From: Planctomyces sp.
GTDB taxonomy: Bacteria > Planctomycetota > Planctomycetia > Planctomycetales > Planctomycetaceae
Direction of reading: 5' to 3'
Length of the DNA stretch: 34,639 nt
Assembly (NCBI GenBank): GCA_005791255.1
Contig: SXXK01000220.1
Span: forward strand, 1-34,639
The notes below the pieces were generated by a model. That model did no database searches. It worked only from the letters and a program-made list of their open reading frames with translations, and was not told the origin of the DNA. The position numbers were made by a program, and so were the translations under genes. Shown piece after piece: positions 1,709 to 7,156 of this stretch. Positions within the stretch are counted from its first letter, which is position 1; the number at the start of each line of letters is the position of its first letter.

Positions 1709-3100
1709 ATGGCTGGGAAACCAGACCCGAAGAAGCCGGAGCCTCAGAAGGGTGCTGTCGCAAAAAAGGCAGCCGAAGGGGAGGAAGTTCCGGAGATTGA
1801 ACAGGTACTGTTTCAGGGACCGCTGTTTGGTCGCGAGGCCAACCTGAAAGCGCACGCCAAACTTGTCCAGTCGGCGCTGGTCCCGGTGAAACAATTCGTT
1901 TCGGACGCCATGGAACGCAGGGCTCACACGATTCACCTGGAACCTCGTGAAGGCAAATTCCTGCTGCGGTATGTGATCGACGGTGTGCCGCATCAGGCGG
2001 GTGTCATGCCGGGGCCTCGCGGAATGGCGCTGCTGCAGATGCTGAAAGTGCTGGCGGGGCTGGATCCGGCCGATCGCAGTACGGCTCATTTTGGTGGCAT
2101 CAGCGCGGAACGCGACAAAATCGGGTTCAACCTGATCGTGGATACGACTCCGGTTGGTTCGGTCGAGCGTCTGCGGATCAAGATTGAAAACCGCAAGGTG
2201 CAGCGGCAGCGGCCTCAGGATATCGGCCTGCCCGAGGATCTGAAGAAGAAGATCCGAAATTTCACATCAGAACGCAGTGGCGTTGTGCTGGTCTGCGGTC
2301 CGCCGGATTCCGGCACTACGACTCTGTCCATCGTGGCGCTGCACTGCGTGGATCCGTACCTGTATCAGGTGTACAACTTTGCGGATCTGAAGGGACGCGA
2401 ACTGATCAATGTGACGGATTTCAAGCCCGAACCCGGGCATGATCTGGAGATCACGTTTGACCGAATTCTGCGTCGCGAGGCGGACGTGTTATTCATGGAT
2501 CCGCTGGTGTCTCCGCAGGACGCGCAGGTAATTTTTCAGTACGGAGATCGGCTGTCTTTTATCATGGAAATTCCGGCGAACACGCCGTTTGAAGCACTGC
2601 AAAAGCTGTTGCAGTGGGTGGGACCGGATCTGGTGCTGAAGAATCTCCGCTGCATTCTGACTCAGAAGCTGATTCGCAAACTGTGCGATGACTGCAAGCA
2701 GGCGTTTCGTCCGAATCCTGCGCTGGTGAAGAAGCTGGGGCTGCCTCCGGAAACAACAGTGCTCTATCGTGCTCCGCAGCCACCGCCGCCGGATGATCCG
2801 AAGGCTCCGACAATTGCCGAGCTGTGTGCTCCCTGTGCCGGTGTGCCGTATCATGGCCGGGCGGCAGTCTTTGAAATGCTCGAGATCACTGACGGAATGA
2901 AGGAAGTTGTGGCGACCGGCCTGACTCCTGAAGCCGTGCGGCGACAGATGGCGGCTGACGGCCAGACGACTCTGCAAAAGGACGCCATCCGCCTGGTCGC
3001 ACAGGGTAAGACGTCTCTGGAGGAGGTTCAGCGAGTCTTCAGTCCTCCGGGTGCCGCCAAAAAGAAGCCGGCTCCGCGTCCGCCCGGTCCGCCGCGATAA
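1709..3100 (+). CDS. Degenerate GspE/PilB-type secretion ATPase (probable pseudo-ATPase)
   Basis: The 463-residue protein has the layout of a type II secretion/type IV pilus assembly ATPase. An N-terminal sub-domain with HTIHLEP and YVIDGV (cf. SDIHIEP/YRIDG) comes first, then a LKVLAGLD segment, a P-loop region, and a CxxC...CxxC zinc module with GRAAVFEMLEI (cf. GRxGIYELL) near the C-terminus. Catalytic motifs are broken. The Walker A reads GPPDSGTT (residues 197-204), with Thr203 where the family has Lys. The Walker B/Asp box reads DVLFMDPLV (around 259-267), with Pro where GEIRD has Glu. The STLHTN histidine box is absent. The reading frame is intact, so this looks like a maintained pseudo-enzyme. 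I chose the ATG at 1709, behind AGGGAA, over an upstream GTG at 1625. The tail is Pro/Lys-rich. A structural or regulatory role in pseudopilin assembly is inference. Confidence 0.88.
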   Translation: MAGKPDPKKPEPQKGAVAKKAAEGEEVPEIEQVLFQGPLFGREANLKAHAKLVQSALVPVKQFVSDAMERRAHTIHLEPREGKFLLRYVIDGVPHQAGVMPGPRGMALLQMLKVLAGLDPADRSTAHFGGISAERDKIGFNLIVDTTPVGSVERLRIKIENRKVQRQRPQDIGLPEDLKKKIRNFTSERSGVVLVCGPPDSGTTTLSIVALHCVDPYLYQVYNFADLKGRELINVTDFKPEPGHDLEITFDRILRREADVLFMDPLVSPQDAQVIFQYGDRLSFIMEIPANTPFEALQKLLQWVGPDLVLKNLRCILTQKLIRKLCDDCKQAFRPNPALVKKLGLPPETTVLYRAPQPPPPDDPKAPTIAELCAPCAGVPYHGRAAVFEMLEITDGMKEVVATGLTPEAVRRQMAADGQTTLQKDAIRLVAQGKTSLEEVQRVFSPPGAAKKKPAPRPPGPPR

Positions 3101-3188
3101 GGGCGGGGAAGCGAGTGATTTCGGTTGGTTCCGGAATCCTCGATGGTGTATCACAACGTGTTCAGTCTGTTGAGAAAGCTTTGCACTG

Positions 3189-4418
3189 ATGCGGCCTGTT
3201 CAGTTGCTCAATACGGGTGTTTTTGTTGTGCGTCTGCGGCGGTGGGCGTGGTGCCTGCTGCTTTCCGTTCTGTGCGGCAGCGTAGTTTCGCTGGAAGCAG
3301 CGGCTCAGACGCCGACAGCAGCGTCAGACCAGGGAGTATCGGACCGCAGGCCTGACACGGGGCCGGCAGTGGAATACGAGGGTCGCTGGCTGGTGCCCTA
3401 TGAAGCCACGATTCCGGGGACTGATGTCAGGTTCCGGATGATTCCGATTCCGGGTGGCGAGTATCAGATGGGCAGTGCGGACAGTGAGGCTGGTCGCGGT
3501 GAGGACGAAGGTCCGGTCCGGCGGGTCAGAGTTGCACCATTCTGGATGGGTGAGTGTGAAGTGACCTGGGCGGAGTACAAGCTGTTCATGCAGTTGTACC
3601 GTCATCTGAAGGAGTTTGAGGCGCGTAGTGTGCGGAAAGTGACGGACGACAATCGGATTGATGCCGTGACGGCTCCGACACCGCTGTATGAGCCGGATTT
3701 TACGTTTGAGTACGGTGATGAGCCGCAGCAGCCGGCCGTGTCGATGACGCAGTATTCCGCCCGCCAGTACACCAAGTGGCTGTCGGCAATCAGTGGTCAG
3801 CAGTATCGACTGCCGACGGAAGCGGAGTGGGAGTATGCGTGTCGTGGCGGGACGACGACAGCGTGGTCCTTTGGCAGTGATGTCTCTGCCCTGGGGGAGT
3901 ATGCGTGGTTTGCCGGCAACTCTGAGGGTTCCGGTACCAAAGTGGTGCGTCAGAAGAAGCCCAACCCATTTGGTCTTTACGACATGCATGGCAATGCGGC
4001 GGAATGGGTCATCGATGCTCATGGGGCATACCCTCAGAAGGACCTCGTTGATGCTGCAGCTGACTGGGTTCGTTCGGTCAAACCGGACCCGCGTGTGGTG
4101 CGTGGCGGGTCCTGGGAACTGACGGCGGAACAGAGTCGTTCAGCGGCGCGTCTGGGATCGGATGATGAACGCTGGAAGGAGTATGACCCGAATCTGCCGC
4201 GGAGCCCGTGGTGGTTCACCACTGATCCCGCTCGCGGTGTGGGCTTTCGTCTGCTGCGTCCTGCCAGGGCCATCAGTCGGGAAGCGATTGAAGAGTTTTG
4301 GCAGATTGACTGCGACGACATTCGGTATGATGTGGAGGATCGGCTGAATGAGGGTCGCGGGGTGCTTGGGCTCGTGGATCGAGAGCTCCCGCAGGCCATC
4401 CTGGATCTGCAGAAGTAG
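3189..4418 (+). CDS. Secreted FGE-sulfatase-fold (SUMF1-like) protein without active-site cysteines
   Basis: The 409-residue protein has an N-terminal signal peptide (basic RLRR then WCLLLSVLCGSVVSL, cut near EAAAQ) and then a formylglycine-generating-enzyme fold: MIPIPGGEYQMGS (about 85-97), PFWMGECEVT, YRLPTEAEWEYACRGG, NPFGLYDMHGNAAEW, VVRGGSW and GVGFRLLRPA near 355. About 50 extra residues follow. In true FGE two cysteines just after the GGS motif do the catalysis; here the segment reads GGSWELTAEQSRSAARLG, without cysteine. It is therefore probably a non-catalytic FGE-fold protein, a type planctomycetes carry in large numbers. A GTG at 3228 is an alternative start that would give a more compact signal peptide. 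SUI1 follows after 9 bases, so these genes may be co-transcribed. Confidence 0.9.
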   Translation: MRPVQLLNTGVFVVRLRRWAWCLLLSVLCGSVVSLEAAAQTPTAASDQGVSDRRPDTGPAVEYEGRWLVPYEATIPGTDVRFRMIPIPGGEYQMGSADSEAGRGEDEGPVRRVRVAPFWMGECEVTWAEYKLFMQLYRHLKEFEARSVRKVTDDNRIDAVTAPTPLYEPDFTFEYGDEPQQPAVSMTQYSARQYTKWLSAISGQQYRLPTEAEWEYACRGGTTTAWSFGSDVSALGEYAWFAGNSEGSGTKVVRQKKPNPFGLYDMHGNAAEWVIDAHGAYPQKDLVDAAADWVRSVKPDPRVVRGGSWELTAEQSRSAARLGSDDERWKEYDPNLPRSPWWFTTDPARGVGFRLLRPARAISREAIEEFWQIDCDDIRYDVEDRLNEGRGVLGLVDRELPQAILDLQK

Positions 4419-4427
4419 GGGTGTATC

Positions 4428-4766
4428 ATGGGACTGCTGGCCGGCACGATCTATGACCGTCCGCCGCGGTGTGAGCACTGTGGACTGCTGGAATCTGAAT
4501 GTCGCTGTGTGCCGCCGGAGCCTGAGCCGCGTGCGAAGTCCGGTCGTTCATTGCGACTGGGAGTGGAAAAGCGGAAGCACGGTCGGATGATGACAGTGGT
4601 GCGTGATCTGGGGCCGGACGATGATGCAGGTGTGCTTCTGACGCGATTGAAGAACTGCTGCGGTGCGGGAGGTTCGGTGCAGGACGGTGTTCTGGAGATC
4701 CAGGGAGCGCATGCTGATCGAGTGCGTGCGGAGCTGCTGAAGCTGGGTTATCGGGTGCGTGGCTGA
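4428..4766 (+). CDS. SUI1/YciH-family translation initiation factor-like protein
   Basis: The 112-residue protein matches the bacterial YciH/eIF1-like family. An N-terminal Cys module (CEHCGLLESECRC, residues 15-27) resembles the zinc-like head seen in some members. A linker leads to the SUI1 core: LRLGVEKRKHGRMMTVVRDLG, LLTRLKNCCGAGGSV, VLEIQGAHADRV and LGYRV at the C-terminus. In archaea and eukaryotes the homologue monitors start-codon selection; bacterial YciH affects initiation fidelity and stress translation. It lies 9 bases after the FGE-fold gene and 21 bases before a small unknown gene, suggesting one transcript. The G-rich GGGTGT just before the ATG may serve as its ribosome site. 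The family assignment is firm; the cellular role in this organism is inferred. Confidence 0.92.
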   Translation: MGLLAGTIYDRPPRCEHCGLLESECRCVPPEPEPRAKSGRSLRLGVEKRKHGRMMTVVRDLGPDDDAGVLLTRLKNCCGAGGSVQDGVLEIQGAHADRVRAELLKLGYRVRG

Positions 4767-4787
4767 GTTTATCTGCGGAGTGCCGGC

Positions 4788-5045
4788 ATGGAAGACCTGA
4801 CGGGCAGACAGGTGGTGGTGGACGTGGAATCGCCCTTTGTGTATGTCGGCAGACTGCATGAAGTGCGTGAAAAAACGCTGGTGCTGAAGCAGGCTGATGT
4901 CCATGATCTGCGGGATTCCACAACAACGCGGGAAGTCTATGTGCGGGATTCCCGAGTTCATGGAATTCAGGCCAATCGTAAGCTGGTGTACGTGCGGCTG
5001 GACAAGGTGGTCAGTGTGTCGCTGCTGGAGGATGTGATTCCGTAG
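4788..5045 (+). CDS. Small conserved-looking hypothetical protein (85 aa)
   Basis: I cannot name this family. The protein is short, soluble and beta-rich, with alternating hydrophobic and charged residues (RQVVVDVES, FVYVGRLHEV, TLVLKQADVHDL, KLVYVRLDKVVSVSLL). That pattern would fit a small SH3- or Sm-like barrel, but this is only an impression. No signal peptide, membrane segment or cysteine is present. It sits 21 bases after the SUI1 gene and 41 bases before ligA on the same strand, which together with its clean start supports a real gene within a run of housekeeping genes. Possible RNA or nucleic acid binding is speculation from fold and neighbours. Confidence 0.75.
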   Translation: MEDLTGRQVVVDVESPFVYVGRLHEVREKTLVLKQADVHDLRDSTTTREVYVRDSRVHGIQANRKLVYVRLDKVVSVSLLEDVIP

Positions 5046-5050
5046 CGTGA

Positions 5051-7156
<2,106 letters not shown>

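Follow-up and report, generated by a model that had tools for sequence, protein, structure and literature searches.

The window analysed here is a stretch of 34,639 nucleotides of planctomycete DNA (contig SXXK01000220.1). On its forward strand it carries a gene for a GspE/PilB-like protein, in which the following features were located:

1709..3100, + strand: gene of the putative GspE/PilB-like pseudo-ATPase; ATG start, 463 aa, without N1 domain and without membrane anchor
1805..1825, + strand: strand near the N-terminus, VLFQGPL; 31 orthologs all have Phe35 and Gly37
2297..2323, + strand: P-loop GPPDSGTTT; residue 203 (codon ACT, 2315-2317) is Thr instead of the Lys of GspE/PilB
2381..2389, + strand: Asp box ADL (residues 225-227) instead of EDP; Glu replaced by Ala, the Mg-coordinating Glu being gone
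2486..2503, + strand: Walker B VLFMDP(L); residue 265 (codon CCG, 2501-2503) is Pro instead of the catalytic Glu
2567..2581, + strand: His box remnant EIPAN instead of TLHTN; HTN changed to PAN at residues 289-291
2684..2695, + strand: first CxxC of the zinc module (C326, C329), present in 97 of 98 orthologs
2825..2836, + strand: second CxxC of the zinc module (C373, C376), present in 97 of 98 orthologs

A longer reading from a GTG at 1625 was considered and found to be unneeded; the ATG at 1709 lines up with the start of the close orthologs. According to our reading of the alignments, the VLFQGPL strand would take the position of the GPPIRFxGKS stretch of membrane-anchored relatives, which lies just past their membrane part.

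The protein matched the Pfam family T2SSE (PF00437) over residues 60-442 with 106.9 bits, above the gathering cut-off of 24.9. The scores with the NCBIfam equivalog models were below their cut-offs for GspE (TIGR02533, 133.6 against 630 bits), PilB (TIGR02538, 110.4 against 676) and TfpB (NF053534, 120.4 against 850). The AlphaFold2 model (pLDDT 85.6) gave Z scores of 30-34 against PilB, PilF and GspE for residues 54-446, and residues 1-29 were disordered in it. No Pfam match to the N1 (MshEN) domain was found in the protein, and only about 50 residues precede N2. The fold, the N2 domain, the zinc tetracysteine module and the C-terminal region are shared with the GspE/PilB (PilF) assembly ATPases, whereas N1, the Walker A Lys, the Asp-box Glu, the catalytic Glu, the His box and gsp/pil neighbours are missing. 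The zinc module is a mark of assembly-type motors. In EpsE, it is required for function (PMC5061722).

The initial annotation had described Thr in place of the P-loop Lys, Pro in place of the Walker B Glu and the loss of the His box, within an intact frame that keeps the four-Cys zinc module and matches the family. All of this was confirmed by translation and by the Pfam match. At the positions of the two arginine fingers of PilB, which were assigned by alignment, the window protein has Ile at the first (Arg in 16 of 98 orthologs) and Lys at the second (Arg in 44, Lys in 36). In PilB the Mg is held by the Asp-box Glu, and mutations in these catalytic motifs disrupt the activity of PilT-like ATPases (PMC5424180). 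Since the P-loop Lys, the Mg-holding Glu, the catalytic Glu and the His box are all gone, the standard PilB cycle is impossible. What the protein retains is its fold, the backbone of the P-loop, two arginines of the core and, most notably, the zinc module.

Orthologs were collected from a sample of 297 genomes of the class, 84 of them from the same family (Planctomycetaceae). Each of these 84 carried an ortholog with E<1e-145, and the homologs ranked next came only at about 1e-102. In a second, overlapping sample it was found in 35 of 37 genomes, the two others being drafts. Alignment of the motifs in 98 distinct orthologs revealed that none keeps the P-loop Lys, in whose place stands mostly Val (59), Thr (17) or Leu (12) and once Arg, and that none keeps the His-box His; the catalytic Glu occurs in five. 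The recurrence of the motif loss in 98 distinct orthologs shows that it is due neither to chance nor to sequencing error. Pairwise dN/dS values in and near the genus of the window, which is Fuerstiella or lies close to it, ranged from 0.01 to 0.13, with several dS values near saturation, so that the ratios are numerically readable for the closer pairs only. The former ATPase core was as low as the N2 domain, and between the window and its nearest species no amino-acid change was found in the core at a core dS of 0.50.

The loss of three separate motifs could in principle point to a gene that has recently begun to decay or is being lost, or to a fault in the assembly. The losses are however common to orthologs across the family, with open frames and low dN/dS, and this explanation was ruled out, its chance being practically nil. 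Orthologs with both Lys and Glu, which the initial annotation had named as counter-evidence, did not turn up. The proposal of a maintained pseudo-ATPase is well supported by the absence of the Lys from all orthologs, the rarity of the catalytic Glu and the strong purifying selection; judged from sequence, the window gene is very probably an old pseudo-ATPase of the GspE/PilB type that selection has maintained. What appears to be new is a natural, family-wide dead protein of this type, fixed in Planctomycetaceae. To our knowledge, no family-wide, naturally maintained and catalytically dead member of GspE/PilB has been known. A literature search of open papers returned neither a planctomycete pseudo-GspE nor a natural, family-wide dead GspE/PilB.

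The regions under constraint were compared in 14 Planctomycetaceae genomes that encode the dead protein together with an active paralog, which is GspE-like and belongs to the same branch. Between genomes, the identity of the Asp box, Walker B and His box was 30, 36 and 37% in the dead protein versus 89, 83 and 93% in the active paralog. In the zinc segment (residues 320-355) the values were 65.7% and 63.4%, respectively. The motifs have fallen while the zinc segment has held, which indicates that selection still acts on the zinc region and not on catalysis. Each of the zinc Cys occurs in 97 of the 98 orthologs; the sole ortholog that has lost all four of them is encoded at 4929-6269 of locus L041 (genome G035).

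The P-loop was the least eroded catalytic motif of the dead protein, with 59% identity, the other motifs having 30-37%. Gly197, Gly202, Arg255 and Arg323 are invariant in the 98 orthologs, Thr204 is kept in 94, and the position one before the lost catalytic Glu is often acidic (Asp in 53, Glu in 9). These features would suit a nucleotide-sensing switch, by which nucleotide is still bound and perhaps hydrolysed weakly or in an unusual way. Nevertheless, the Lys, the Mg-coordinating Glu, the catalytic Glu and the His have gone together, most orthologs have no Arg at the first arginine finger, and changes in the same motifs are those that disrupt activity in the PilT-like enzymes cited above, which makes such a switch clearly improbable.

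The closest relatives of the protein form a planctomycete GspE-like branch, which is separated from canonical GspE/PilB in the tree with a support of 100/100. In the alignment its members are mostly 580-800 aa long and carry N-terminal membrane helices. When one of the dead long forms was modelled (pLDDT 74.5), helices were found at residues 2-20, 54-80, 85-105 and 109-134; read from their hydrophobic sequence, these are predicted to cross the membrane. In most loci examined, the long GspE-like gene lies directly 3' of a gene for a PilT-type ATPase, and the stop of the PilT-like gene often overlaps the GspE-like start by one base. In some families the branch protein is canonical and looks catalytic. 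In nine other families (group codes f5, f7, f9, f10, f11, f13, f14, f16 and f17) the Lys is gone in 36 of 37 copies, and the PilT-like gene adjoins in 35 of 36 loci. The proteins of these operons are the nearest relatives of the window protein, from the same branch and dead in nine families; they differ from it in being mostly 580-800 aa long, membrane-helical and PilT-linked, whereas the window protein has 463 aa, no such helices and no linkage. Like the window protein, some copies of the nine families (439 and 463 aa, loci L310 and L311) also have no membrane part. The Fuerstiella PilT-like protein scored above the PilT/PilU family cut-off (379 versus 319).

Further genes recur in these loci. 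The gene hisF adjoins the PilT-like/GspE-like pair, or the PilT-like gene, in several of them. A gene for a CvpA/colicin V production-like membrane protein follows the long GspE-like gene immediately in several families (for instance L047, 4173-4943, and L053, 3250-4032). Three long forms, in L277 (G042), L276 (G055) and L181 (G041), have the Lys and no His box, two of them being also without the catalytic Glu; they look like steps toward the dead state.

In Planctomycetaceae the surroundings are different. No gsp or pil genes were found beside the window gene or its orthologs in 84 loci, searched up to about 8 kb on each side. The dead gene does not adjoin the PilT-like gene in this family, and its neighbours are metabolic: genes for DapA and a 3-hydroxyisobutyrate dehydrogenase-like protein in other genera, and for a phosphodiesterase-like and a formylglycine-generating-enzyme-like protein in Fuerstiella. 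Two genes downstream in the window, at 4428-4766, lies a gene for a small protein of the SUI1/YciH family (translation initiation factor-like) with several N-terminal Cys. The metabolic neighbours, together with the missing N1 domain, could mean that the protein has left the pilus/secretion machinery for another job, such as a regulatory one or one at the envelope. It has nevertheless retained the fold in full as well as the zinc module, and the related branch remains paired with a PilT-type motor; a departure of this kind was considered very unlikely.

It had also been proposed that the protein is a non-hydrolysing partner of a true GspE. In a wider form, the dead subunit would pair with a canonical GspE/PilB motor, either by joining it in mixed hexamers or by tuning it from outside as a cap or brake. 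Six other GspE/PilB-type paralogs are encoded in the draft genome, all of which keep the Lys, and the most conserved part of the dead protein is the zinc module of assembly-type motors. Tuning has a precedent in Acinetobacter baylyi, where PilB activity is adjusted by the bound inhibitor CpiA (PMC8213720). Against such a pairing stand the lack of gsp/pil linkage in the 84 loci and an identity of only 23-27% to the canonical paralogs, which lie on the other side of the 100/100 division. In addition, the active long form, which among active GspE-like proteins is the closest relative, is missing in all 18 Fuerstiella genomes and in the genera g6, g45 and g58, one genome among these being complete in a single contig, and the dead protein is retained there; and the ATPase linked to this branch in other families is of the PilT type, not GspE. 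The proposal of a true-GspE partner thus found no positive support. The dead protein may still have a role with a canonical PilB/GspE paralog, and this was judged unlikely.

As the dead protein is kept where the active long form is absent, it is independent of the active GspE-like paralog. Both the dead protein and the PilT-like gene are kept in Fuerstiella, g6, g45 and g58, with the exception of two drafts. One of them is the draft of the window itself (88% complete), in which searches did not find the PilT-like gene, and a near-identical species has one; in one further draft the gene is present as a fragment. Owing to this co-occurrence and to the linkage in other families, the PilT-like ATPase is a better candidate partner, and we propose it tentatively. 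Its separate location from the dead gene in Planctomycetaceae counts against this pairing, and so does the observation that, in genomes with both, the PilT-like gene can adjoin the active long form.

The dead protein of Planctomycetaceae is probably a scaffold and not an engine, and its place is rather likely to be in a pilus or secretion machine. We infer the formation of a ring, the partner and the machine served. The dead GspE-like ring would act as a docking and transmission platform, and the PilT-like ring would be the source of ATP turnover. As a whole, a model in which a dead structural or adaptor ring belongs to a type IV pilus or type II-like machine, with a PilT-type ATPase doing the work, seems possible, with nearly as much in its favour as against it. 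A broader version is more doubtful: across many Planctomycetia families the GspE/PilB-type subunit might be a permanently dead ring, membrane-anchored or soluble, with all the work done by the PilT-type ATPase.

A partial precedent is found in Vibrio cholerae, in which PilU needs PilT to be present, and PilT broken in Walker A or Walker B still lets PilU power retraction (PMC6762196). Both cases would have in common that a dead motor supports a live one. In V. cholerae, however, the two proteins are both of the PilT type and the inactivation was done in the laboratory (PMC6762196), whereas here the dead state is natural, of the GspE type and fixed in Planctomycetaceae. If the model is true, Planctomycetia possess a natural dead-motor/live-motor pair in a machine of the pilus or secretion type. 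Such a dead protein would separate the structural role of the ring from its ATP-burning role, with selection showing that the zinc module is valuable without catalysis. It would also provide a natural test of a question to which PilT and PilU have given rise: can hexameric pilus motors act in stacked pairs, one dead and one live?

The origin of the short dead protein was addressed with a tree from which the catalytic motifs were left out. The short protein and the dead long forms were recovered as one clade with a support of 58/48, and its placement as sister or duplicate of the family's own active form was not rejected (p-AU 0.276). The tree thus leaves both origins standing, a common one with the dead long forms or a duplication of the active form of the family. 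It was also considered whether the dead protein evolves more slowly in genomes that have lost the active form; after scaling by the divergence of the PilT-like protein, the effect was not clear. At 2728-7101 of locus L309 (G137), a PilT-like gene, a long dead GspE-like gene and a short GspE-like copy of 439 aa with the P-loop Lys stand in tandem, and this short copy is possibly an intermediate between the long and the short forms.
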